Shown here piece by piece: positions 1,688 through 27,241 of a stretch of DNA of 64,000 bases (positions are counted from its first letter, which is position 1; each line of letters begins with the position of its first letter). The notes below the pieces were generated by a model. The model was not told the origin of the DNA and did no database searches. It worked only from the letters and a program-made list of their open reading frames with translations. The translations under genes were made by a program, and so were the position numbers. The stretch lies in NCBI GenBank assembly GCA_958431225.1, contig OY288107.1:1453501-1517500 (forward strand). Direction: 5' to 3'. The stretch is from an uncultured Alphaproteobacteria bacterium (GTDB lineage: Bacteria > Pseudomonadota > Alphaproteobacteria > Puniceispirillales > UBA1172).

Positions 1688-4600
1688 ATGCCGAACGATC
1701 TGACAGCAAAACGGAATTTGTTAAACGCGCGCGCGGATGCGCCGACGTCTCAACGTCAAAAGCTCACCTCATCGGGCTTCACGGCTAGTATTTGGACGCT
1801 TTCGGGCGTGGTGTTGGTTGCTTGTAGTTCGGTTGAGGATTTCTTGGGGCTAGATGATGGCGGCGGCGGCGGTCGGGCGTTGCATGTGCAGAATAGCCCG
1901 GTGCAAGGCGCAAGGCTCTATTTTTTCGCTTTTGATACAGATGGTGATGGGATGCTTAGCGATGCTGAAAAAGCGGCACAGGACGCGCAATATCCCGAAG
2001 GTTTTGTCACCGACGCTTCAGGTGCGGCGCGCAATATCCCTGCCGAGTTTTACGGCAAGCCGTTTGTTGCGATTCTTGACGGCGCGATTGATACCGAAAC
2101 TGGCGCAGAATTAAGCGGTGAGTTGCGTTCCATCGCCAATGCGGATGATCAACACCTCCTAGCCTCACCGATTACGGATTATATTGCGACTCAGCTTGCA
2201 TCGGATCTCGAGCCTGAAGCAGTGATTGCCGCCGCCGCCGAAGAGGTTGCCGAATGGTTAGGGTTAGACACCACCGCCCCGCTGCCCCCTGAACAAGAAC
2301 AAATGCGCGATACAGAATTACGCGCGATTCTCAACCATGCGAATTATCAAGGCGGTGATGCGCGCATTGAAACTCTGGCGGCATATTTGGCGAACACGCC
2401 ATCCCCCGACCCAACAGAAATAACGCGGATATTGCTTGGCGATACGGCTGACCCCGACAACACGCTCATCGTTGTTAGTGAGGATATGGTTTCTAGCGAT
2501 GCCGTAACCATAAGCGTGGATGCGGATGGTGCGGTGCTTGATTCGCATATTGCGACAATTCATGCGGTGAGCCATGGGGATAATCTCGTGCGGTATGACA
2601 TTGTTGATACGGATGATGAGACTGTTACTGACGGTCCTTTCAGCGTTGATTCTTCAAGCGGGGTGATTTCGGTTGCGGGAGGTCAAACCCCGCCCACCGG
2701 CACCATGATGCTACGCATTATGGTCAGTAACGGCGATGCTGCAGAAACCGAAATCGTGCTTGTTGAAGTCACGGTTGCGGATGCCCTGACTTTGGAAGCA
2801 ACTGATACTGAATTTGAGGTGATGGAAAATGTTGATGGCGCGGATTTAATTAGCGGCATCACGGCATCTCCGGGCATCACTGCCACCGATTTTGTCATTC
2901 GTGAGGCTGTTCCTGCGGGTTTAGGTTTTCTCGTGGATAGGCTTGAAATTATGGAAGATACCACCACCCCCGGCACTTTCAACCTAATGCTGAAAAGCGG
3001 CGAAACCCTAGATTTTGAGGCGATTCCCGGCGGCGTTCTTAATCTGCACGTTTTTGTTGAAAATAGTGCTGGTGTGCGCTCCGCCCCGTTAGAAATTGCC
3101 ATCACGGTTACTGATGCGAATGATGCGCCGATTTTCCAAACTGCGGCGCAAAATTCCAACCTCGACTACACGGCGGAGATTCCCGAAAATGCCGCGATGA
3201 ATGAAATGGTTGCGCAGGTTGGTGCGATTGATGTTGATGCGGGTGATTCTGTGACCTATGAAATCACTAACGGCAACACCGGCAACGCATTTTCCATTGA
3301 TAATCGCGGCGTGATTCGTGTTGCGGATGCGAGCGCGTTGGATTATGACACCGCCCCCAACACTTACACGCTAACCGTCACGGCAACCGATAGCACTGGT
3401 GCGACAGCAACGCAAGACGCAACCGTCACCATCACCCTCACCGATATCAACGATGTCATCCCCACCTACACCGAATCTGGTGCCAGTGATGCTTCGGTGC
3501 AAATCGTGACGGCGGCGGAGAATACCGCCGACACAAGCACGGGTTATAGCATCACCATCACCGATGCGGATACGAACAATATTTTCAGCGTCAGCGTTAG
3601 CGGTGATGCCCGTGACCGCTTTGAATTCCAAGACCAAGGGGCTGGCGTTTGGGAGCTATTCCTCAAAGCAGGCGAAGCCGTAAATGAGCCAGAAGACGCA
3701 GAAATCCGCCTCACCTACAGCGTCAGCGATGGCGAAAATGAGGCGGCAGATAGGGGTTCGGTCACGCTTGATGTCGTTGATACGCCGGTGAGTTTCACGC
3801 CCCTGAACGACCCGATGGCACTGATGGCGCCGGAAAATGATATGGCTTGGATGTTGCAATTAGAGGCGACCTCGGACGCTGGCGGCAGTGGTGGCACATC
3901 CCCGATTGCTAGATATGAGTTCGTTGATGGTTCTAGCGTCTCTCAATCTTCGGGCATTTTCCGCATTAGCGACATGGGGCTAATCACCATCACGCAGGCA
4001 TTTGATTTTGAGGACAGCAACCCCAATTCTTACGAATTCACCGTCCGCGCCACCGATAGCCGCACCGACCCTGAATCTAACGAAATCACCTTCACCATAA
4101 CCGTGGAAAATGTGGATGAAGGCGATGCGGTATTTGCGCTCACTGGCACGGCTGAGGCGGGTGAGACATTGACGGTGATGCAAACCATGGCAGACCCTGA
4201 CGGCATTGTGCCTAACAGCATCAACTATATTTGGCGTTGGGAAGATGCCACTGTATCTGACCCATTTGCCGAGGACAGATTCAAAACATTGCTTGACGAA
4301 AACGACAACCCGCACACAGGGAGCACTTACACGATTCCCGCTGGCGCAGACCTAACCAACATTCTGGGTTATGAGGTTAGCATTGAATACAGGGATAATT
4401 TCGGTGCTGAATTTTCTGTAGCCGGAGAAAATTCAAAAACAGCTTTCTTGGCAACATCAACGGTGACTTTCACGGCAAACTCGTCCCCTTTTGCCATTGA
4501 TGAAGCCGATGATATCACCACCAACACGCTTGGCACAGCTGGCGATGGCGTTTTGGCGACCGTGACGGCAACATCTAGCGAGAATCAGGATGTATCCTAT

Positions 4601-7600
4601 GCGCTCACATCTGCCACAGCTAGCGATGGTTCTGACGCAAGCAGTCTGTTTTCCGTTGATTCTGACGATGGGGAGGTCAGATTCGCTGATTCAAGCGTGG
4701 ATTTGGATTTTGAAACCATCTCACAATACACGCTAATCATCACCGCCTCCGCCCGAAAATCATCTACGGACACAACTTTGGACACAAACACCGCCACCGT
4801 CATCATCAATGTGGGCGATGTCCAAGAAGGCGAAGCCAATTATGAAATTAGCGAATCAGGCACTATTCTAACCGTTGCGCTAACTGACCCTGACCCTGCT
4901 TCTGCGACCTATTCTGGCGACCCTGATGGCGTTGTTGGTGATGTGATGTTCCGCTGGTTCACGACTATTGATGGGGGTATGACCAAAAATTATATTGGTG
5001 ATGCAAGCACTTCAAACATGCTAGACATTTCTCCCGCCACCCCACCGATGCGAGACCCTAATATGCTGACGCTGGATTATCTGACAACTACAAGCGTCCC
5101 AACTGTTACGGCTGGTAATGAAGGTTGGTATTCGGTGACAGGCGATGCCTTAAATATGCTTGACCCGAATAATATGGACGCGATTGACCCTGATTCGGCT
5201 ACTGGGCATCGGTTTATTCTTGGTCTTCGTTTTCCTAATAATGTCGATTTGGATGGCGGTAGCGGCAATGATGAATATGTCATCACACCCGGCGCCGAGG
5301 GCGGGGACACTGAGGGTATTAATATTGTAGATGTAGAAGGACACAATAGGATCATTATTGGCGACACGATAACAACCGATGCTTTCACTATAAGCCACAC
5401 GCTTACGAGTGTTAGCACAAGGAATGATAATTATTTTCTTGTATTTGATAGAACCACCACTTTTAGTAGTGGTACTAGCACCTCAAGCGTGACTATTTCT
5501 GTCAGAAAACCCACGGGACCTGATAATTCCGTAGTATTCGCTTTTGAAGCGGGGGATGATTCGGGGCGTACATTCACCTATGCCGAACTTGAAGCCCATC
5601 TTAGCGGCACAGAATTATCTTACGGCGTGGAAATCAGCTACACTGATGGACAAGGCAAGGACGAGGCATTTGATGTTTTCGCCTCGCCAATAGATTTCAC
5701 CGATGGCACGGATTCTGTATCCTCCTACACTGGCACAATCAATGAGGATGGCACACTCCTAGCCGACAATGCTGGCGATGACATTCCATTGCCGCAAGTA
5801 GTGGCGGTCGTGGAAGATGCGCCCATGGGTAGCACAATAAAATACGCATTTTTGGTTAATGCCGAAACTGGTCTTACGACCGGCTCGTTTTCAGGTTTTT
5901 CCATTGATTTTGATGATGGTACGATTACCGCGTCTAGCACGATTCCCGGCACAGATTTCAATTACGACCTTAACCCCCCTAGGGAGAGCATCACCCTAAC
6001 CGTGCGCGCGACTTATGATACTAATGGTGCTAACACTGGTGGTGATGTGCATACTAGGGATGTGGATGTGGTAATTGCTGTGAACGACCTCAACGACGAA
6101 ACCCCTGAAATCGGTGCATTGCAGGTAGATGCAAACGCCCCGAGCGCGGTGGCGGGCGCGCCAACATTGGCGGGGGGGACTACTGGCATTGATATGCTAA
6201 CTGGCACGGCTGGTGCTGACCACATTGCTGGCGGAGATGGTGCTGACAAAATCACTAGCGGCGGCGGCAACGACCATATTTTTGGCGGTGATGGCGATGA
6301 CGTCATCACGCTTTCGGATGCGTCAGGGAGCGTGGAAACCGTCTATTACCGCTTTTCATCACAGGGTTCATTCCCATGGGGAGGCGGCGCTGAGGGCTAT
6401 GATATTATCCACAATTTCCGCCGTGGCGAAGATAGGCTTGTGCTCATTGATACCGACGGCACACCCATTGACCGAGACACATTTATAAGCAATGACAATC
6501 GCGGTTTTGATGGTGGGCGCTTGACTGCCACCCATATTTATGATCAGACTGATATGGAGACTTTGCAAGGGCTACGAATCTCGTTTAACGACGGCACCGG
6601 GTTGCAAGTCAATTTCCATTCTGATGATTATGAGGTTCACGATACCCCTGTTGCTAACTTGCCAGACAACACCATGATACCAAGTTATTTCAACATAGAA
6701 ACCGATGACGACAATCTGCAAGTCATTAGCACGGCGGATATACCAGCAATTTTAGGCGCAGACATATTCATCTCCGAAAAATACACCAGCACCCATGGCG
6801 TATTTGCGAATCTTCCCGCCTCCGATGCTGATGGCACTAGCCCGAATAATGCAATTACGAGTTATGACATCACCGGCGGCACCGGCGAGACCCTTTTTGA
6901 CCTTGCCGATGATGGCGATATTAGCGTGAAAGCTGGCGCAACATTGGATGCCACCGAATACACGCTAATCATCACCGCCTCCGATGGCGGCGACACCCCT
7001 ATGACATCAGACCCAAAAACAATAACCATAGGCATATTAGAAGATTCGCTTGCGGAATATAGCCTTGTGCAACCTAACGGCCAAATAGCCGTCATGCTAG
7101 ACACCGCCGATGCCGATGGCGTTGTCGGCACGCCTAGTTATCAGTGGTTCAAAATCAACACCGATGGCACGAGGATGAATGTTGGCACCGATACGACAAC
7201 TTACACGCCACCTATGGCTGATGAGGATTTGATTCATGGCGTTACCATCACCTACACCGACACGTTTGACGTTGACGCAGGGACGCAAACGACCGTTGAA
7301 GCCCTAACCACACCCATAAAAATCACCAACGCCGATGGCGATATTGTCCCGTCCTACACCGCCCCCGTTGGGGAAGCTGAAGATCCCGACGACAATACAA
7401 TCATCATAGATGTAGATGCAAGTGTGGAAAATGCGCCAGACGGTCATGTAATAGGCTATAAATTTAGGCGCGGCGATAACGACTTTCACTTCAATGACCC
7501 TAGCAATACTTTTGCAATTAATGATGATGGCGAGATACGCCTAGCTCTCGGAGCGACTCTGGATTTCGAAACCACCCCAAGCTACACCCTAACCGTGAGC

Positions 7601-10600
7601 GTGGCATACGATGCGGATGGCATGGTTGGTACGGACGACCAAGCGCATAGGGATGTGCAGGTAATCATCAACGTGGAGGACGTAAACGAACACACCCCCG
7701 CATTCGCACCCTTAAAAATAGTGGAAGATTCGGGCGCAGTGGCGGGGATTCCTGTTGCGGCATTAGCGGGGCTAACTGGCACGGCTGCGGCTGAACACAT
7801 CACCGGCACTACGGGGGATGACACCACCATCACTAGCGGCGGCGGTGCAGACCATATCTTTGGCGATGCGGGCGATGACACCATCAGGCTTGATGCGGCG
7901 GCAGGGAGCGTGGAAACCGTCTATTACCGCTTTTCTTCCGCAGGGTCAGGCGCATGGGTGGGCTCAGACGGCATTGACACCATCGAAAATTTCCGCCGTG
8001 GCGAAGATAGGGTCGTTTTCATAGACACCGACGGCTCGCCCATAAGCCGGACTGACTTTTTGAACAACAACAATCGCGGCGCTTCTGGCGGGCAACTGAC
8101 TGTCAAATTACTTACCACTGAAACGATGCCTACTAGCGCAACGCTCACAACCGTGAATGGGATAGAAATCCAATTTGATGCCAACAACAAATTGGTGTTG
8201 AATTACCATAGCGATACCACCCCATCTTGGGCGCGCACTGGTGGTGGTGCCTATTCTAGCTCGGCTCCAACTTTCATAGGCACCAATGGCGCAGGTTTTG
8301 ATGATACAACCGATACATTGACCAACCACGCTGACTTACTGCCAAACTATTTCGGCGACACAGGCAACACCAATCTGCAAGTCATGGGCGATGATATTTT
8401 GACAAGGCTAGGGGTAGACATCCTAATCTCCGAAAAATACACCAATGCCCATGGCGTATTCGCAAAACTCCCCGCCAGCGATGATGATGGCTCTGCCCCG
8501 AATGATGAAATCAACTATTTCATCCTCGCCGGTAGCACGGGCAGGGGGGTTTTTGACTTTACCGCAAACGGCGATATTAGAGTGAAAGCTGGCGCAACAT
8601 TGGATTACGACATCGCCACCGAATACACGCTAATCATAGAAGCCTCCGACGGCGGCTCCCCGTCTATGACATCAGACCCAAAAACAATAACCATAGGCAT
8701 ATTGGAAGATTCGCTTGCGGAATATAGCATTGCTGAAGATGAAGCTAGCGGTGAATTGACCGTTGCGCGCATCAGTGAAGACCTTGATGGCGTTGATGAC
8801 ACGCCTAGTTATCAGTGGTTCAAAATTAACACAGATGGCACGAGGACGATTATTGACACTGCGACCTCAACAACTTACACGCCACCTACGGATGATGAGG
8901 ATTTGATTCATGGCGTTACCATCACCTACACCGACACGCTTGACGTCGCGGCAGGGACGCAAACGACCGTTGAAGCCCTAACCACACCCATAAAAATCGC
9001 GGATGCCGATGGCAATATTGTGCCGTCCTACACCGCCCCCGTTAGCGAAGATGCAGTTTTCGGCGACCCGGCGATTGTGCATGTAGATGCAAGTGTGGAT
9101 GGTGCGTCAGCAGATAGCGTAATTACCTATTCCTTTAGGCTCGGTGATAACGACTTTAACGTCCGTGATTCTAGCGGTATTTTTATAATTGGTAATAATG
9201 ATGGCATGATAGAGGTAGAAGACGAAACGAATTTGGATTTTGAGACCACCCAAAGCTACACCCTCACCGTGCACGTGCGCTACGATGCGGATGGCAGCGG
9301 CATGACCACGGACGACCAAGTGGAGAGAGATGTGCAGGTAATCATCAACGTGCAGGATGTGAACGAATTCGCCCCCGAATTCGCACCCTTGGCGATAGTG
9401 GCAGATTCGGGTGCGGTGGCAGGGATTCCTGATGTTACGGCATTAACGGGGCTAACTGGCATGGCGGCGGCTGAACACATCACCGGCACCGCTGGTGCTG
9501 ACACTATCACTAGCGGCGGCGGTGCAGACCATATCTTTGGCGGTGCTGGCAATGACGGCATCACGCTTTCAACGGATGCAAATAACGTGGAAACCGTCTA
9601 TTACCGCTTTTCTTCCGCCGGGTCAGGCGCATGGGTAGGCTCAGATGGCACGGACGAAATCCACAATTTCCGCCGTGGCGAAGATAGGGTCGTCTTTATT
9701 GATACCGACAGCGGCGACGCCATCAGCCGGACTGACTTTTTGAACAACAACAATCGCGGCGCTTCTGGCGGGCAACTGACTGTCAAATTACTTGCCACTG
9801 AAACGCCTTCTAGTGGCGTAACTCAAGTAACCATAACGGGGATAGAAATCCAATTTGATGCCAACAACAAATTGGTGTTGAATTACCATAGCGATATAAC
9901 ATTTAGTTACAATTCGACTACTGGATCCCCTAGTGCCACGGGCTTACCTTTCATAGGCACCAATGGCGCAGGTTATGATTCTACAACAAAAACATTGACC
10001 AACCACGGCTTACTGCCAAACTATTTCGGCGACACAGGCAACACCAATCTGCAAGTCATTGGTGAAGCCGATTCACCAAATTTCGGCGGAGACATCCTAA
10101 TCTCCGAAAGGCGCAGACATGAGGATGGCGTATTCGCCACCCTAGCCGCCACCGATGAAGATGGCGCCCCAAATAATGCAGTGAGCTATAAAATCACCGG
10201 CGGCACCGGCATGGATATTTTTGCAATTGACGAACATGGCGGGATTCGCGTAGCAAGCGGCAGAGGATTTAACACCGAAGGCGGCACCGAAGCCCTAACC
10301 TACACGCTAACCATAGAGGCGTCCGACAGCGCCGACACCCCTATGAAAGCAACAGAAACCATCACCATAGGCGTAGAGGTAGATCATCTTTCGGTTTATG
10401 GCATTGATGATGAGACAGCTGGTCAATTGGAAGCCGTATTAGACACCGAAGATTCTGATGGCGTGGTTGCGGCTAGCGTTAGGTATCAATGGTTCACCAC
10501 CGACGGCACATCCATAAACCTACTTGGCACGTCCACGGATTCAGAAACGCGTGACATTTCCAGCCACACACTCCCGACGGGCTCAGTCTATGGCTTGACC

Positions 10601-11320
10601 GTCACCTACAACGACGAAGCGGGCAATATGGGCGAAACTGTTACCATTGTACAAGGGATTATTGACGGCGGCGTTGCTAATGAAACTCTCGATGGTGATG
10701 CGACTACTAATTTCATAGTTGGCGGACTAGGCATTGATACCATAGACGGCAAAGGCGGCAACGACCACATCGCCGGCGGGCAAGGCAACGACAACATCAA
10801 GCTTGATGCGACAGGGAGCGACGAGACCATCTACTACCGCTTCGCCTCAACCGACAGCGGATTGGTAGCCATTGACGGCTTTGACACCATCACAAATTTC
10901 CGCCGCGGCGAAGATAAACTCATCCTAGTTGATACAGACGATTCGCTCATCACCCTGACGGATTTTTTGAACCATGATGATTTAGTCATCAAAACGATTG
11001 AGGGGCCCCTTGCTCAAGTATTGGAAGGGGTGCGAATCTTTTTCGGCACCACACAAATACTAGAAATCCAATACCATTCCAGCGACCAGGTACGCTTCCA
11101 GATGACGAATAGCGATTGGATTTTAGAACCCGTCGAAACATATCTAGGCGACCTACCCGGCGACGATGTAAGTATAACCAACGACCCAACAGGCTACAGC
11201 ATTGACACGCAGATCGTAGAAACCACCACCCTACTACCAAACTACTTCAACGAAGAGACCGGTCAAGACAATCTACAAATCCATGACGACGAAATGATTG
11301 TCATTTTTGATTTGATATAA
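1688..11320 (+). CDS. Giant cadherin-like / RTX-like repeat surface protein
   Basis: A 3210-residue acidic protein, probably an adhesin or extracellular structural protein. Residues 31-46 are hydrophobic and end in LVAC (Cys46), which resembles a lipobox, although the preceding n-region is unusually long. An EF-hand-like loop (DTDGDGMLSDAE) follows near residue 80. Residues about 300-1500 hold cadherin-like repeats, recognisable by endings such as DANDAP, DINDVIP and DLNDETP. Then come four modules beginning near residues 1480, 2005, 2565 and 2990. Each has RTX-like glycine-aspartate repeats (GGxGxDxI), then YYRFSS and FRRGED motifs, then cadherin-like domains. Modules two and three are nearly identical in DNA. 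The last module ends early, shortly after NLQI. The ATG follows GGAGGA at 1676-1681. No type I secretion genes are visible nearby. The biological role is inferred from domains only. Confidence 0.85.
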   Translation: MPNDLTAKRNLLNARADAPTSQRQKLTSSGFTASIWTLSGVVLVACSSVEDFLGLDDGGGGGRALHVQNSPVQGARLYFFAFDTDGDGMLSDAEKAAQDAQYPEGFVTDASGAARNIPAEFYGKPFVAILDGAIDTETGAELSGELRSIANADDQHLLASPITDYIATQLASDLEPEAVIAAAAEEVAEWLGLDTTAPLPPEQEQMRDTELRAILNHANYQGGDARIETLAAYLANTPSPDPTEITRILLGDTADPDNTLIVVSEDMVSSDAVTISVDADGAVLDSHIATIHAVSHGDNLVRYDIVDTDDETVTDGPFSVDSSSGVISVAGGQTPPTGTMMLRIMVSNGDAAETEIVLVEVTVADALTLEATDTEFEVMENVDGADLISGITASPGITATDFVIREAVPAGLGFLVDRLEIMEDTTTPGTFNLMLKSGETLDFEAIPGGVLNLHVFVENSAGVRSAPLEIAITVTDANDAPIFQTAAQNSNLDYTAEIPENAAMNEMVAQVGAIDVDAGDSVTYEITNGNTGNAFSIDNRGVIRVADASALDYDTAPNTYTLTVTATDSTGATATQDATVTITLTDINDVIPTYTESGASDASVQIVTAAENTADTSTGYSITITDADTNNIFSVSVSGDARDRFEFQDQGAGVWELFLKAGEAVNEPEDAEIRLTYSVSDGENEAADRGSVTLDVVDTPVSFTPLNDPMALMAPENDMAWMLQLEATSDAGGSGGTSPIARYEFVDGSSVSQSSGIFRISDMGLITITQAFDFEDSNPNSYEFTVRATDSRTDPESNEITFTITVENVDEGDAVFALTGTAEAGETLTVMQTMADPDGIVPNSINYIWRWEDATVSDPFAEDRFKTLLDENDNPHTGSTYTIPAGADLTNILGYEVSIEYRDNFGAEFSVAGENSKTAFLATSTVTFTANSSPFAIDEADDITTNTLGTAGDGVLATVTATSSENQDVSYALTSATASDGSDASSLFSVDSDDGEVRFADSSVDLDFETISQYTLIITASARKSSTDTTLDTNTATVIINVGDVQEGEANYEISESGTILTVALTDPDPASATYSGDPDGVVGDVMFRWFTTIDGGMTKNYIGDASTSNMLDISPATPPMRDPNMLTLDYLTTTSVPTVTAGNEGWYSVTGDALNMLDPNNMDAIDPDSATGHRFILGLRFPNNVDLDGGSGNDEYVITPGAEGGDTEGINIVDVEGHNRIIIGDTITTDAFTISHTLTSVSTRNDNYFLVFDRTTTFSSGTSTSSVTISVRKPTGPDNSVVFAFEAGDDSGRTFTYAELEAHLSGTELSYGVEISYTDGQGKDEAFDVFASPIDFTDGTDSVSSYTGTINEDGTLLADNAGDDIPLPQVVAVVEDAPMGSTIKYAFLVNAETGLTTGSFSGFSIDFDDGTITASSTIPGTDFNYDLNPPRESITLTVRATYDTNGANTGGDVHTRDVDVVIAVNDLNDETPEIGALQVDANAPSAVAGAPTLAGGTTGIDMLTGTAGADHIAGGDGADKITSGGGNDHIFGGDGDDVITLSDASGSVETVYYRFSSQGSFPWGGGAEGYDIIHNFRRGEDRLVLIDTDGTPIDRDTFISNDNRGFDGGRLTATHIYDQTDMETLQGLRISFNDGTGLQVNFHSDDYEVHDTPVANLPDNTMIPSYFNIETDDDNLQVISTADIPAILGADIFISEKYTSTHGVFANLPASDADGTSPNNAITSYDITGGTGETLFDLADDGDISVKAGATLDATEYTLIITASDGGDTPMTSDPKTITIGILEDSLAEYSLVQPNGQIAVMLDTADADGVVGTPSYQWFKINTDGTRMNVGTDTTTYTPPMADEDLIHGVTITYTDTFDVDAGTQTTVEALTTPIKITNADGDIVPSYTAPVGEAEDPDDNTIIIDVDASVENAPDGHVIGYKFRRGDNDFHFNDPSNTFAINDDGEIRLALGATLDFETTPSYTLTVSVAYDADGMVGTDDQAHRDVQVIINVEDVNEHTPAFAPLKIVEDSGAVAGIPVAALAGLTGTAAAEHITGTTGDDTTITSGGGADHIFGDAGDDTIRLDAAAGSVETVYYRFSSAGSGAWVGSDGIDTIENFRRGEDRVVFIDTDGSPISRTDFLNNNNRGASGGQLTVKLLTTETMPTSATLTTVNGIEIQFDANNKLVLNYHSDTTPSWARTGGGAYSSSAPTFIGTNGAGFDDTTDTLTNHADLLPNYFGDTGNTNLQVMGDDILTRLGVDILISEKYTNAHGVFAKLPASDDDGSAPNDEINYFILAGSTGRGVFDFTANGDIRVKAGATLDYDIATEYTLIIEASDGGSPSMTSDPKTITIGILEDSLAEYSIAEDEASGELTVARISEDLDGVDDTPSYQWFKINTDGTRTIIDTATSTTYTPPTDDEDLIHGVTITYTDTLDVAAGTQTTVEALTTPIKIADADGNIVPSYTAPVSEDAVFGDPAIVHVDASVDGASADSVITYSFRLGDNDFNVRDSSGIFIIGNNDGMIEVEDETNLDFETTQSYTLTVHVRYDADGSGMTTDDQVERDVQVIINVQDVNEFAPEFAPLAIVADSGAVAGIPDVTALTGLTGMAAAEHITGTAGADTITSGGGADHIFGGAGNDGITLSTDANNVETVYYRFSSAGSGAWVGSDGTDEIHNFRRGEDRVVFIDTDSGDAISRTDFLNNNNRGASGGQLTVKLLATETPSSGVTQVTITGIEIQFDANNKLVLNYHSDITFSYNSTTGSPSATGLPFIGTNGAGYDSTTKTLTNHGLLPNYFGDTGNTNLQVIGEADSPNFGGDILISERRRHEDGVFATLAATDEDGAPNNAVSYKITGGTGMDIFAIDEHGGIRVASGRGFNTEGGTEALTYTLTIEASDSADTPMKATETITIGVEVDHLSVYGIDDETAGQLEAVLDTEDSDGVVAASVRYQWFTTDGTSINLLGTSTDSETRDISSHTLPTGSVYGLTVTYNDEAGNMGETVTIVQGIIDGGVANETLDGDATTNFIVGGLGIDTIDGKGGNDHIAGGQGNDNIKLDATGSDETIYYRFASTDSGLVAIDGFDTITNFRRGEDKLILVDTDDSLITLTDFLNHDDLVIKTIEGPLAQVLEGVRIFFGTTQILEIQYHSSDQVRFQMTNSDWILEPVETYLGDLPGDDVSITNDPTGYSIDTQIVETTTLLPNYFNEETGQDNLQIHDDEMIVIFDLI
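6110..10960 (+). repeat. Tandem intragenic modules of about 1.6-1.7 kb
   Basis: Four homologous modules lie inside the giant gene. Equivalent points, the GACCATAT of the RTX repeat, are at 6272, 7850 and 9527, giving periods of 1578 and 1677 bp. A shorter divergent fourth module starts near 10655. Modules two and three share long exact stretches, for example about 69 bp (8045-8113 against 9725-9793) and about 58 bp (8159-8216 against 9839-9896). This indicates recent duplication or gene conversion. Confidence 0.85.
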
Positions 11321-21787: not shown

Positions 21788-21954
21788 AATGCGCCCCTCT
21801 CCTTTGCAGTTTGGGTGGGATTATCGTTGCAATTTTTTCGCCCGCTATCGTGTGCGCGACTAGTGATACTGCACCACCGACACTTTGAGCAACCTTTTTT
21901 TATACGCATTTTGCTGTATGATGCTAGAATAATATGCAGAAAGGAATGAAAGCA

Positions 21955-23127
21955 ATGCCGATTTACAATGCAATTATGCAAGCAAGTGCGGAAATGCGCG
22001 AGTGGCGCCATTATCTGCACGCACATCCAGAACTAGGATTTGAAGAACACAACACCGCGCGTTTTGTCGCCGAAAAATTAAAAGAATTCGGCATAGAGGT
22101 GCATCAGGGGTTCGCCGGCACCGGTGTCGTCGGGGTGATTCGCGGCAAAGGCAACAGCAAACGCATGATCGGCTTGCGCGCAGATATGGACGCGCTACCC
22201 ATCCTTGAAGCCAGCACCCACAACCATAAATCAAAAAAAGATGGCGTGATGCACGCTTGCGGGCATGATGGGCATACGGCGATGCTGTTAGGGGCGGCGC
22301 GCTATTTGGCGGAAACGCGGAATTTTGACGGCGCGGTGGTGCTCATTTTTCAACCCGCAGAAGAAGGCGGCGGCGGCGGCAAAGTCATGTTGGATGAAGG
22401 ATTATTTGATAAATTCCCAGTAGAAAGCGTGTGGGGGATGCATAATTGGCCGGGGCTTGATGTGGGGCGCGTAGGCATTCATCACGGCGCGGCGATGGCG
22501 GCGGCGGATGTTTTTGACATTCGCATAGAAGGGCGCGGGGGGCACGCGGCAATGCCCCACGAGACGGCAGACCCGATTATCGCGGCAGGGGCATTGATTC
22601 AAGGGTTGCAATCGGTGGTGTCAAGGCGCGTCAATCCGCTAGATGCGGCGGTGGTATCCATCACCCAATGCCATAGCGGTTTCACCCATAACGTCATCCC
22701 CAGCGCGGCAACTCTGCAAGGTTCCGTCCGCTATTTTAACACCGAAATAGGCAAAGAAATCCACCAAACCATAGCCGAAATGACAGACGAGGTAGCCAAA
22801 GCCCACAGGTGTAAGGCAGAATGCAAATGGGAAATAGGCTACCCCCCAACCACCAACGACAGCGAAGCGGCAAACCGCGCAGCAAACACAGCCGCAGAAG
22901 TATTAGGCGCAGGTTCCGTAAAAATGAACCCACCCCCAAGCATGGCAGCAGAAGATTTCGCCTACATGCTAAAAGCCCGCCCGGGCGCCTACATATGGCT
23001 AGGCGCCGGCCACCCCCAAGCCAACGCCACACTCCACAACCCAAACTACGATTTCAACGACGAACTACTACCACTAGGAGCAAGTTATTGGGCAGCCCTA
23101 ACCGAACGCGAATTGGCACTAGAATAG
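21955..23127 (+). CDS. M20-family amidohydrolase (hippurate hydrolase / N-acyl-amino-acid hydrolase type)
   Basis: A 390-residue metal-dependent peptidase-like hydrolase that cleaves amide-linked acyl groups from amino acids. Visible motifs are HAHPELGFEE, RADMDALPI, HACGHDGH (Cys102 and His104 as metal ligands), QPAEEGGGG and MHNWP. The start chosen is ATG 21955, about ten bases after AAAGGA; in-frame ATGs at 21934 and 21946 are poorly placed. It is divergent from soxB. The last 350 bp have markedly A/C-rich third positions (many CTA and ACC codons), unlike the beginning. The natural substrate is unknown. Confidence 0.85.
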   Translation: MPIYNAIMQASAEMREWRHYLHAHPELGFEEHNTARFVAEKLKEFGIEVHQGFAGTGVVGVIRGKGNSKRMIGLRADMDALPILEASTHNHKSKKDGVMHACGHDGHTAMLLGAARYLAETRNFDGAVVLIFQPAEEGGGGGKVMLDEGLFDKFPVESVWGMHNWPGLDVGRVGIHHGAAMAAADVFDIRIEGRGGHAAMPHETADPIIAAGALIQGLQSVVSRRVNPLDAAVVSITQCHSGFTHNVIPSAATLQGSVRYFNTEIGKEIHQTIAEMTDEVAKAHRCKAECKWEIGYPPTTNDSEAANRAANTAAEVLGAGSVKMNPPPSMAAEDFAYMLKARPGAYIWLGAGHPQANATLHNPNYDFNDELLPLGASYWAALTERELALE

Positions 23128-23192
23128 ATGCGTGAAATGTATTATGATAAGATTTAATTTTATGTCTTGCGAGATAATCATTGGGGACTGGA

Positions 23193-24230
23193 ATGGCAAA
23201 GAATAAAAAAGATTTCAATGCGATTGATTTGTTTTCAGGGTGTGGCGGGCTTTCTTTAGGCATGGAAAGGGCAGGCTTCACGGTTAAGGCGGCTGTTGAA
23301 ATAGACAGATACGCGATTGAAGCCTATCGTTTAAATCATAAAGGCGTTCATATCATCGAAAAAGATATTAAAGATGTTTCTGCAAATGAGATAGAGGAAA
23401 CGCTAGACGGCGCGCCGCTTCATTTGTTAGCAGGTTGCCCCCCATGCCAAGGGTTTTCTTCTGTCAGGCGTTTGAATCGAACGCCAGCTGTGCATGATGA
23501 CCGCAACGCATTAATCCAAGAATATTTTAGGCTTGTTAAATCGTTGAAACCTATCACGATTATGATGGAAAACGTCCCCGGATTGAAAGATTATGCGCTT
23601 TTCAAAGATATTGTGAAATGGCTTGAGAAAATTGGCTATTCGGTCAGCGTTGAGGTGCTGAATGTAAAAGAATTCGGTGTGCCACAAAATAGGCGTAGGC
23701 TCATTATGTTGGGTTCGCGCATAGGCAAGATAGATATTTCAAAGCAAGCCAATGCGGGCAAAGTTACTGTGCGTGATATTATTGAAACTCTCGAATTGCC
23801 AGAAGATTCCAACGACCCCCTCCATAAAATTGTTCCAAAACATAGTGAAAAAATCAAAAAAAGAATCGAATTAACTCCCAAAGATGGTGGCAGTTGGAAT
23901 CAATTACCAGATGAATATACTCTGGATTGTCATAAAAAAGATAATGTCGGCTTTAATGATATTTATGGCAGATTGCGGTGGGATGATTGCTCATCAACCA
24001 TTACAGGTGGCTGTTTGAATCCATCAAAAGGGCGGTTCCTGCACCCCGAACAAAACCGAGCCATAACCCCCCGCGAAGCCGCGCTTTTACAATCTTTTCC
24101 TGAGGGCTATGAATTTCCAACAACCATCCCAAAACAAGCCCTAGCACTCCTAATAGGCAACGCCCTACCGCCAAAATTTAGCCAACATCATTCTAAGGTT
24201 ATTATTGACCATTTAGAGGCGCATTGTTAA
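23193..24230 (+). CDS. DNA (cytosine-5-)-methyltransferase
   Basis: A 345-residue C5 methyltransferase using S-adenosylmethionine. Conserved motifs appear in order: I (DLFSGCGGLSLGM, residues 12-24), IV (GCPPCQGFSS, catalytic Cys85), VI (MMENVPG), VIII (FGVPQNRRRL), then IX/X (ITPREAALLQSFPEGY and IGNALPP). The target-recognition region lies at about 200-270 and its specificity cannot be read. The ATG at 23193 follows GGGGA; a TTG at 23181 is less likely. It is clearly more AT-rich than the flanking genes, and a GHKL ATPase follows after 36 bp. No restriction endonuclease is adjacent, so it may protect the host from, or mark DNA for, the neighbouring ATPase system. Confidence 0.9.
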   Translation: MAKNKKDFNAIDLFSGCGGLSLGMERAGFTVKAAVEIDRYAIEAYRLNHKGVHIIEKDIKDVSANEIEETLDGAPLHLLAGCPPCQGFSSVRRLNRTPAVHDDRNALIQEYFRLVKSLKPITIMMENVPGLKDYALFKDIVKWLEKIGYSVSVEVLNVKEFGVPQNRRRLIMLGSRIGKIDISKQANAGKVTVRDIIETLELPEDSNDPLHKIVPKHSEKIKKRIELTPKDGGSWNQLPDEYTLDCHKKDNVGFNDIYGRLRWDDCSSTITGGCLNPSKGRFLHPEQNRAITPREAALLQSFPEGYEFPTTIPKQALALLIGNALPPKFSQHHSKVIIDHLEAHC

Positions 24231-24266
24231 TATCAATGTGTTATTTTGAGAAAAAGGGAGGTTTTT

Positions 24267-25982
24267 ATGTCTGATGATGATGATAAAAAATTAAGAATGA
24301 GCTTTGACCCAAGCACTCTTGAGCATCTTGGGGTCAAAATGTATTCGTCTCTCCCCAATGCTTTAGCGGAGTTAATCGCTAATGCTTATGATGCAGATGC
24401 TACTTGTGTTCGCATTAATCTGCATGACGATGGGGCTAATAAATCTATTGAGGTCATCGATGATGGTGTCGGGATGACTTTTGATGAAATTAATGACAAG
24501 TTTCTTCGCATTGGCAGAAATCGCCGTGCAGAAGAAGATACTTACTCTCCCTCAGGCAATAGGAAAGCCACAGGCAAGAAGGGACTCGGAAAACTAGCAC
24601 TTTTTGGACTTGCGCAGAGAATCAAAATTGAAACTAGACAGAAGAGGATGGATGAGAAAATTATTTTTGAATTAGATTGGAATAAGATCATGAGTTCTGA
24701 GAAACCTGAATATAATCCTACATCTAAATTGAAGCCCTGCGATCCTTCAAAGCAGGGAACAAAAATTACATTGCTTGATCTCAAGCGAAGTTCCCCTTTT
24801 GACAAAAAAGAATTAGCGGTGAGCATTTCAAAATTATTCGTATTTTTTGATAATAAAAAGTTCAAATGCTGTTTAACATTAAATAACGATGAACCTATGG
24901 CAGTTAACCAAAAATTGAAATATGAAAGCGTTGACGAGCAATTTCCGTGGAAGTTTCCAGAATTTTCTATGAGTATAGATGATAATTTTGAGTATAAGAA
25001 TCGCATATCTGGGAAAATTATTTCTACCAGAAAACCCCTTAAACCTAATTTACGTGGCATTACGCTTTATGCGAACGGACGTTTGGTAAATGCACCCGAG
25101 TTTTTTGGTCGCTCCGAAAGTAGTCATGTCTACTCTTACCTTACAGGATGGCTGGAAGTAGATTACATAGATAACCTTGAGGAAGATGTAATTTCAACTA
25201 ACCGTCAATCCCTTAATTGGGAAAATGAGGAAATGAAAAAATTAAGGAATTTTTTATTCAAAATACTTCAAAAAATTGTCAAAGAGTGGCGGGAAAAATG
25301 GCAAAAAGCAAAAGAAGAAAAGATCAGTAAAGACACTGGAATTAATATAGAGATTTGGATGGGCGAAACCCCAGAGAGCATTAGAAAAATTCTCAGAAGA
25401 ATACTTAGGCTAGTTATCGAAGATGGAGGAATTGATCCAATTCTAACAGAAAAAATAGTGAATAACATTTATGGTCTCGTGCCTGGATATCCTTACTATC
25501 ATTGGCGCAATCTGCATCCGAAGGTGAAAGAAATTTCAAGGGAATATTATCAGAAAGAAGATTATTATACTGCTTTTTCTGAATCTGTTAAGTGTTATAT
25601 TGACGAAATTATGCGCATTACTGGCTCTCAATCGCCCCCTTTTAATCTCATGAAAGAGGTTTTTATTTTGCCGGATGCCCACCAATGTAGCGAATGCAAT
25701 CGTCCTTTTAAACCCATAAAAAAGGTAAGTGGCACTCAACCTATATTAGATGTGACAGCCAAATATGTGCAATCTGGGAAATCTTTTAAGCAGGCTACTT
25801 TAGATGGGATTCAAAAGGGGCAGGGACTTCTATCCCAAGGGGTTGTTGCTGGGGGAAGGAATACAATGGCACATGAAGAATTTAGGAATTTAAAACAGAC
25901 AGATCTTTTTACTGAAGATGATTGCTTAGATGCGTTGAGTATTTTGTCACATCTTTTTCGAAGGCTGGAAGATGCTCAATAA
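24267..25982 (+). CDS. GHKL (MORC/MutL-like) ATPase with C-terminal HEPN-like R-x4-H domain
   Basis: A 571-residue protein. The N-terminal GHKL ATPase motifs are clear: ELIANAYDA (Glu35, Asn39, Asp42), DDGVGM (65-70) and GKKGLGK (103-109). This layout matches MORC/MutL-like ATPases known to occur beside DNA methyltransferases in restriction-modification-type loci. Residues about 200-330 form the second GHKL half, followed by a charged helical segment (335-365). There is a CSEC pair near 476. The last 120 residues resemble the Ymh/TIGR02391 type C-terminal domain and include GGRNTMAHEE, where Arg531 and His536 form the R-N-x3-H motif of HEPN ribonucleases. The ATG follows GGGAGG. Base composition is AT-rich, suggesting horizontal transfer with the methyltransferase. 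An antiphage role is inference. Confidence 0.8.
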   Translation: MSDDDDKKLRMSFDPSTLEHLGVKMYSSLPNALAELIANAYDADATCVRINLHDDGANKSIEVIDDGVGMTFDEINDKFLRIGRNRRAEEDTYSPSGNRKATGKKGLGKLALFGLAQRIKIETRQKRMDEKIIFELDWNKIMSSEKPEYNPTSKLKPCDPSKQGTKITLLDLKRSSPFDKKELAVSISKLFVFFDNKKFKCCLTLNNDEPMAVNQKLKYESVDEQFPWKFPEFSMSIDDNFEYKNRISGKIISTRKPLKPNLRGITLYANGRLVNAPEFFGRSESSHVYSYLTGWLEVDYIDNLEEDVISTNRQSLNWENEEMKKLRNFLFKILQKIVKEWREKWQKAKEEKISKDTGINIEIWMGETPESIRKILRRILRLVIEDGGIDPILTEKIVNNIYGLVPGYPYYHWRNLHPKVKEISREYYQKEDYYTAFSESVKCYIDEIMRITGSQSPPFNLMKEVFILPDAHQCSECNRPFKPIKKVSGTQPILDVTAKYVQSGKSFKQATLDGIQKGQGLLSQGVVAGGRNTMAHEEFRNLKQTDLFTEDDCLDALSILSHLFRRLEDAQ

Positions 25983-25993
25983 CGCCACCAACC

Positions 25994-27241
25994 CTAACTA
26001 TCCCGCGGCAATGCCGGTATTGCTACGCAGGATAGGCCTTTTCGGAATATGTTTAGGCAGGCTTGTCTTGCGGCGTCTTCTTTGAAGCCTTCGAAATGTA
26101 CTTGCCAGAAGGTTAGGTTGCCGTAGCGGATTTGTCTTAATTTTGCGGGTTGTAGGGATAGGATGTCGCTACTGGCTTGGCGGGCGTCGGCGGCGGCGCG
26201 GTAGGCGCTGGCGCGGCGTTCGTAGCTGCCGATTTGGATGCCCCAACTGGTTGGCGTGGCGGAATTGGTTGAGGGCGCCGGGTCGGCTAGGTTGGGGCGG
26301 GGCGGGGCTAGTGCTACGGTGACTGCCGCTTCGCCCGATTTTTCGGTGCGTTTTAGGGCTAGGATGTTGGGTCTTGGCGGCGGTAATTTTACTAGCGTTG
26401 GGGCGGATGGTTTCTTTTTCGGCACTAGGGTGGTTTCGGCATATTGCGGGACGCGGTCAAATTGTTTGTTGAGCAAATGTATCATGTGTTTGTTGCGCGA
26501 AGCCCCGGTGCGTCCGCCAAAAACCACGCCGACTAAACGGATGCCCCGCCGTTCCACCGTGGCGACTAAGTTGAATCCTGATGCGCGAATATAGCCGGTT
26601 TTGATGCCATCGGTGCCTTTGTAACTGGATAAAAGTTTATTGTGGTTCCTAAATTTGCGCCCGTTATATTCAAAACTCTTAGTCTTAAAGAGGTGGAAAT
26701 AATGCGGGAAATCGCGGCGGATGGCGATGGCTAATTTTGCCATATCGCGCGCGGTGGATTTTTGCTTGGAATGCGGCAGACCTGAAGCATTGCGAAATGT
26801 AGTGCGTTTCATCCCTAGCGCGCGGGCTTTGCGGGTCATTTTCTTGGCGAATTCGCGCTCGGATGGCGCGAGATGTTCGGAAATAGCGGTGGCAATATCA
26901 TTCGCCGATTTGGTAATGAGCGCCATAATCGCATTTTTCGCAGTGATGGAACTGCCCGGGCGCAACCCCAATTTGGAGGGCGAACGTCCGGCGGCTAATT
27001 TGCTGATTTTGATTTTCGTGCCCATATGCACTTTGCCGTTATCAAGGGCTTCAAACAGCATATAAAGCGTCATAATTTTGGTCAGCGAGGCGGGGTAGAG
27101 TTGCTTGTCGGCGTTGCGCGAATACATGACTTTGCCGCTATTTTCATTAACGACAATAGACGCGTATTTGGCTTCAGCACTGGCGTTAAAGCCCACCACT
27201 AGCGCAGAAACCAACAACATAAAAACAATTAGGCGTCGCAT
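25994..27241 (-). CDS. D-alanyl-D-alanine carboxypeptidase with SPOR domain
   Basis: A 415-residue periplasmic penicillin-binding protein that trims the terminal D-Ala of peptidoglycan stem peptides. Residues 1-24 are a signal peptide. The active-site motifs are SLTK (Ser52, Lys55), SAN in the KSANDIATAISEH segment, and KTG in IKTGYIRASG. The C-terminal SPOR domain (about 335-410) would bind denuded septal glycan. The start chosen is ATG 27241 after GAGG; the frame is open 20 codons further. It is convergent with the ATPase gene (11 bp apart) and divergent from clpS, an arrangement common in alphaproteobacteria. Its 3' end is A/C-rich in third positions. Confidence 0.9.
   Translation of the reverse strand: MRRLIVFMLLVSALVVGFNASAEAKYASIVVNENSGKVMYSRNADKQLYPASLTKIMTLYMLFEALDNGKVHMGTKIKISKLAAGRSPSKLGLRPGSSITAKNAIMALITKSANDIATAISEHLAPSEREFAKKMTRKARALGMKRTTFRNASGLPHSKQKSTARDMAKLAIAIRRDFPHYFHLFKTKSFEYNGRKFRNHNKLLSSYKGTDGIKTGYIRASGFNLVATVERRGIRLVGVVFGGRTGASRNKHMIHLLNKQFDRVPQYAETTLVPKKKPSAPTLVKLPPPRPNILALKRTEKSGEAAVTVALAPPRPNLADPAPSTNSATPTSWGIQIGSYERRASAYRAAADARQASSDILSLQPAKLRQIRYGNLTFWQVHFEGFKEDAARQACLNIFRKGLSCVAIPALPRDS

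Follow-up and report, generated by a model that had tools for sequence, protein, structure and literature searches.

Type II restriction-modification systems of the BbrUII/HgiDII kind (NCBIfam NF050001) have a C5 cytosine methyltransferase gene adjoining a gene for a GHKL-ATPase protein with a C-terminal PD-(D/E)XK nuclease. M.HgiDII methylates GTCGAC (PMC5867850), and we take the activity of BbrUII from the NCBIfam name and from the same paper. Prokaryotic MORC and paraMORC proteins, in which a GHKL and S5 module is found in restriction-modification loci, were described in 2008, including members that end in a RecB-like nuclease or a TIR domain (Iyer et al., PMC2292703). Fusions of a Ymh-family HEPN domain to a paraMORC in restriction-modification neighborhoods were reported computationally, in one sentence that draws an analogy to PrrC/RloC (Anantharaman et al. 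2013, PMC3710099). The same paper assigns the Ymh family to the HEPN proteins, a superfamily of predicted metal-independent RNases, gives Rx4H as the RNase motif of HEPN proteins, and notes that certain HEPN domains act as non-catalytic binders. Work from 2025 on VcSduA, a GHKL-Shedu protein of the paraMORC3 type with proven anti-phage activity, established a case of phage defense in which the C-terminal nuclease is under the control of a GHKL ATPase; both the ATPase and the nuclease residues are required, and in that work the protein functions without a methyltransferase (PMC12137116). In the open-access literature, which leaves most subscription papers out of reach, we found no experimental study of a Ymh-HEPN/paraMORC fusion, and none of the open-access papers from 2014 on linked HEPN and GHKL with defense or with methyltransferases and anti-phage activity.

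The locus described here lies in a 64,000-nucleotide stretch of an uncultured alphaproteobacterial genome (the window), which corresponds to 1.45-1.52 Mb in a genome assembled as one contig of 2.33 Mb. Two intact genes on the plus strand, 36 bases apart, encode a C5 methyltransferase and a GHKL ATPase. The features of the locus are as follows.

21934-23127, plus strand: M20-type peptidase, flanking; conserved left border of the umuDC-replacement site
23193-24230, plus strand: C5-cytosine DNA methyltransferase, 345 aa (PF00145, PADLOC MTase_II, catalytic motifs in the translation)
24256-24261, plus strand: GGGAGG, ribosome-binding-site-like, upstream of the ATPase start codon (sequence reading)
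24267-25982, plus strand: GHKL ATPase-HEPN fusion protein, 571 aa (profiles, motifs, AlphaFold model with pLDDT 85.2)
24288-24791, plus strand: GHKL ATPase domain, residues ~8-175 (PF13589, E 1.5e-22; E35, N39, D65xGxG69, G103xxGxGK109)
24792-25421, plus strand: S5-like transducer and helical stalk, residues ~176-385 (NF050001 match; MORC2/MORC3/Hsp90 fold matches)
25482-25979, plus strand: C-terminal Ymh-family HEPN domain, predicted RNase, residues ~406-571 (PF09509, TIGR02391, structural neighbors)
25857-25874, plus strand: HEPN motif RNTMAH (R531...H536, Rx4H; homologue conservation)
25994-27238, minus strand: D-alanyl-D-alanine carboxypeptidase (DacA-like), flanking; conserved right border

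The original prediction, made by reading the DNA alone, was of an AT-rich methyltransferase and ATPase pair set between two convergent chromosomal genes, and this description holds: the pair is bracketed by the M20 peptidase on the plus strand and DacA on the minus strand, and its GC content is 42.4% for the methyltransferase and 37.2% for the ATPase, whereas 20 other genes in the window stand at 53.9% (sd 1.9); the GC3 values are 0.39 and 0.32 against 0.57. The ATPase is read from the ATG at 24267, downstream of the GGGAGG, to the stop at 25982, and the methyltransferase has an alternative upstream start, TTG at 23181. The pair stands alone amid housekeeping genes, with no obvious defense island around it. 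Elsewhere in the window, positions 1688-11320 encode a protein of 3210 residues that contains both cadherin repeats and calcium-binding repeats of the RTX type.

The methyltransferase is matched over its full length by PF00145 in a Pfam profile search (E 8e-62) and by PADLOC MTase_II (E 1.4e-88), and its translation contains FSGCGG, PPCQ, ENV, QNRRR and GNALPP, so it is intact, as was first proposed. Looking toward its target site, we scanned the ATPase for co-divergence with the methyltransferase; the scan gave no clear recognition region, and the co-divergence of the two proteins is moderate only (r 0.44). We also considered an unlinked restriction partner by way of the other related C5 methyltransferase in the host genome; that methyltransferase adjoins its own NgoFVII-type (PLD-fold) restriction endonuclease, so this locus shows no sign of supplying the partner. 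The latter two genes form a complete conventional restriction-modification pair beside ruvX (L215:4914-7127; G000:C1:124913-127126).

In the ATPase, the profile check proposed at the outset gave matches to both PF13589 and, above its cut-off, TIGR02391. Across 37 homologues, the GHKL residues E35, N39, D65, G67, G69, G103, G106, G108 and K109 do not vary and position 104 is K or R, which bears out the reading of the ATP-binding motifs as intact. NF050001, through positions 2-396 of its 659, matches residues 17-388 of the 578-aa reading with E 2.5e-64; the score of 218 bits falls below the curated cut-off of 550. The low score can be read beside those of homologues with a PD-(D/E)XK end, which match the profile nearly end to end, yet at just 304-348 bits. 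PADLOC files relatives of the ATPase under REase_II. In the whole-protein AlphaFold model, about 400 residues match the ATPase modules of Hsp90 and of MORC2/MORC3, and the MORC S5 motif GhXhhpXXRhl is fitted at 10 of 11 positions by GITLYANGRLV in the window protein, with A at the polar position; the R position is R or K in homologues. By the NF050001 match, the ATPase and transducer chassis is homologous to that of the BbrUII/HgiDII restriction enzymes, in which the GHKL, transducer and stalk regions correspond to residues 1 to ~388. In structure comparisons among viral proteins, the ATPase module is also similar to many rIIA-like phage proteins, a group with a GHKL module of its own.

The C-terminus is where the window protein departs from this family. 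The PD-(D/E)XK region of NF050001 is absent, and PF09509 (Ymh; 40 bits, cut-off 25) and TIGR02391 stand in its place. A full-length match to a known restriction enzyme would have spoken against a new system, and the NF050001 match instead stops at residue 388. PF09509 is found in 37/37 homologues with this end, the PADLOC PD-Lambda-3_B tail matches all 37, and Aga_HEPN matches 25. In the Rx4H motif, which falls within the Rx4-6H pattern of catalytic HEPN domains, H536 is kept in 37/37 homologues and R531 in 36/37, and the active sites are retained across Patescibacteria, archaea, Bacteroidota and Proteobacteria. The model of the C-terminus has a pLDDT of 87, and VIA-align ranks seven HEPN-type proteins of solved structure as its nearest neighbors, at Z 6.2-8.1 before a drop to 4.8, although such Z scores are possible by chance for helical bundles. 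A Foldseek search of the HEPN end alone against the PDB returned nothing significant (the best hit, at E 2.9, was an AMPylated HEPN toxin), and a sequence search of the PDB gave no match. Profile searches of the window protein found neither an SduA_C/DUF4263 nuclease domain, which weakly matches the PD-(D/E)XK relatives L059 and L075, nor any other nuclease domain beyond the Ymh HEPN. A CSEC-containing insertion in the HEPN domain (window 25672-25740, residues ~470-490) is absent from homologues and is modeled with low confidence. Taken together, the profile and motif matches indicate that the C-terminal end of the ATPase is a HEPN domain of the Ymh family, a predicted RNase whose Rx4H motif is intact.

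It had been suggested that no nuclease accompanies the pair and that the ATPase might itself carry the effector. The second idea agrees with what we find. The first stands insofar as a separate endonuclease gene is absent, and fails insofar as the ATPase itself bears a domain of a nuclease family. The locus was also put forward as the best candidate for an undescribed system, and this is not supported: the protein is built on the chassis of a Type II restriction-enzyme family that is already known, and the same domain architecture, in a restriction-modification-type neighborhood, was described computationally in 2013 (PMC3710099). The families described among the prokaryotic MORCs (PMC2292703) share the GHKL and S5 module and the MORC2/3 fold that the window model matches, but the HEPN end is not among them, and the window locus has no SFII helicase partner. 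Judging from its sequence, the window protein resembles VcSduA in having an N-terminal GHKL ATPase and a C-terminal effector that would be under its control. VcSduA, however, has a PD-(D/E)XK nuclease, stands alone and spares the host, whereas the window protein has a HEPN end and a methyltransferase.

In five relatives (L202-L206; four from the same genus and one from the same family) the site between the M20 peptidase and DacA (window 23128-25993) is occupied differently: the three same-genus loci L202-L204 carry a umuD-like S24 peptidase and umuC (families checked for L203), and in L205 and L206 the interval is about as long but lacks the methyltransferase and ATPase pair. Given that umuDC is at this site in relatives and that the window genome has just a distant Y-family polymerase elsewhere (27%), the two genes replaced umuDC as one unit and the window genome lost umuDC. 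Among 136 genomes of the order, no other has a full-length homologue of the ATPase, and one genome of the same family carries a PD-(D/E)XK version with its own methyltransferase. The presence in 1/136 genomes, the AT-rich composition and the position in place of the relatives' umuDC mark the pair as a mobile cassette. Scans of the cassette borders for repeats, promoters and terminators gave nothing above chance, and we therefore claim no integrase-type mechanism.

To survey the family, genome and viral collections were scanned by the ATPase sequence alone, which together with the earlier loci gave 132 non-redundant ATPases. Their C-termini are PD-(D/E)XK or Shedu-like in 88, HEPN in 38, TIR in one, helical without a match in three and truncated in two. 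The single TIR end matches the SpbK TIR (E 3.6e-7). This SpbK-like TIR on a GHKL chassis is from Elusimicrobia (L069:7986-9728, and L068) and lies beside a C5 methyltransferase and Vsr. The helical type (L080, L081, L111) has no Pfam or PDB match; Gram-positive bacteria and one viral contig carry it, on a GHKL chassis linked to a methyltransferase.

Of the 38 non-redundant HEPN loci, 32 have a C5 methyltransferase on the same strand no more than 150 bp away, and 36 have one within 2 kb. Of the two without a counted methyltransferase, L032 lies where its contig stops and L034 is truly unpaired. Homologues unpaired with a methyltransferase had been named as evidence against the idea of a two-gene system, and because the partner is so consistently close, the pairing of the methyltransferase with the HEPN-type ATPase is not due to chance. 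Vsr is the sole frequent extra neighbor of the HEPN loci (12 among 100 further neighbors), which is consistent with active cytosine methylation. Genes for ResIII, SNF2, N6/N4 methyltransferases and AbiEii-like ATPases are scattered among the neighbors, and no separate restriction endonuclease recurs, the HpaII-type enzyme being present in two HEPN loci (L029, L036). In a Neisseria gonorrhoeae record (L018:5101-8066), the methyltransferase and the GHKL-HEPN gene are both broken and Vsr is intact, and the viral contig L102 has the same layout.

On the ATPase tree, the HEPN label requires at least four changes. A single HEPN clade, and with it a single origin of the HEPN end, was rejected (p-AU 0.007), though L069 is a long branch. 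Methyltransferases are 60-68% identical between loci with different effectors in three pairs (L029/L061, L033/L063 and L025/L059), the last of which, at 63%, joins a HEPN locus (L025) to a PD-(D/E)XK locus (L059). With methyltransferases up to 68% identical across HEPN and PD-(D/E)XK loci and at least four changes on the tree, effectors have been exchanged while the methyltransferase and the chassis were retained. We also note that an HpaII-type methyltransferase and restriction endonuclease are linked to GHKL-HEPN in one species (L029:5654-9620), whereas in a second species (L061) their partner is a GHKL-Shedu-like protein.

Based on this evidence, we think that the pair is probably a restriction-modification-like two-gene defense cassette whose effector is a predicted RNase instead of a DNase, with the methyltransferase marking self and unmarked or foreign DNA acting as the trigger. 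The methyltransferase would mark its target sites in host DNA, and the GHKL chassis, as a dimerizing DNA clamp of the MORC/MutL-like kind, would engage DNA that lacks the mark. Closure driven by ATP would then join two HEPN domains and activate RNA cleavage, leading to a stop in translation or to death of the infected cell, that is, to abortive defense. Loss of the methyltransferase would be toxic to the host. That unmethylated DNA is the trigger is inferred from the relatives and from the pairing, and some observations go against gating by methylation, namely the HEPN-type locus without a nearby methyltransferase (L034) and the two HEPN loci beside an HpaII-type restriction endonuclease, which better fit a guard role. 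The chassis may also sense something besides missing methylation, because VcSduA acts without a methyltransferase (PMC12137116). Two further results weigh against the reading: the methyltransferase and the ATPase co-diverge only moderately, and the Z scores of the HEPN end lie in a range that unrelated helical bundles also reach.

The main rival is a guard arrangement like that of PrrC/RloC, in which the methyltransferase or a restriction-modification complex silences the ATPase-HEPN protein, and phage attack on the complex, or its inhibition, releases it, with methylation not being read directly. PrrC guards a complete Type I restriction-modification system, whereas the window has no restriction endonuclease with the pair. 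PrrC and RloC do share with the window protein an N-terminal ATPase, a C-terminal HEPN RNase (predicted in the window) and a link to restriction-modification, although their ATPase is of the ABC type and the window N-terminus is GHKL. A guard role is what the one-sentence proposal for Ymh-paraMORC fusions envisaged (PMC3710099). It is favored by L029 and L036, which combine a methyltransferase, an HpaII restriction endonuclease and GHKL-HEPN, by L061, which is equivalent with GHKL-Shedu, and by an additional AAA ATPase gene in L027. However, a separate restriction enzyme that could be guarded is missing from most HEPN loci, and in the two-gene systems of the BbrUII/HgiDII type the chassis is itself the restriction enzyme, so we consider a guard role unlikely here, though worth keeping in view.

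Much less probable is an orphan methylation or regulatory pair, made up of an epigenetic methyltransferase and a non-catalytic, RNA- or DNA-binding ATPase-HEPN partner. The isolation of the locus among housekeeping genes and the existence of non-catalytic HEPN binders would suit such a pair, but the catalytic motif is retained over very distant hosts, the domain is swapped with a PD-(D/E)XK nuclease and with TIR, and many homologues have the ResIII, SNF2, N6/N4 methyltransferase or AbiEii-like neighbors listed above. About as improbable is ordinary Type II-like restriction, with the fusion cutting unmethylated DNA through its Ymh domain or an unrecognized DNase elsewhere, since despite the restriction-enzyme identity of the nearest named family and the REase_II label of the relatives, the PD-(D/E)XK region is missing, Rx4H is an RNase motif and the profile searches gave no other nuclease domain.

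Beyond the fusion described in 2013, what is new here is the assignment of the chassis to BbrUII/HgiDII, the count of methyltransferase pairing, the exchange of effectors under a conserved methyltransferase, and the replacement of umuDC. If a methylation-gated defense cassette is the correct reading, then DNA methylation, the classical self-mark of restriction, would also gate suicide at the RNA level, and perhaps at the NAD level, through a swappable domain, and Type II restriction would be linked to abortive infection and to toxin-antitoxin logic. With the two-gene cassette, the 2013 prediction becomes directly testable. The wider proposal, to which we give about an even chance, is that methylation-licensed suicide systems form a general class in which a C5 methyltransferase provides the self-mark and a common GHKL clamp, on meeting unmarked DNA, fires one of a set of effectors that can stand in for each other (a DNase, a HEPN RNase, a TIR NADase or the helical domain); if it is true, 'restriction' can mean shutdown of the cell instead of cutting of DNA. 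If the cassette reading holds, genes labeled as BbrUII/HgiDII-like restriction enzymes may not cut DNA, and their methyltransferases may therefore be misfiled as orphans or as parts of ordinary restriction-modification systems.
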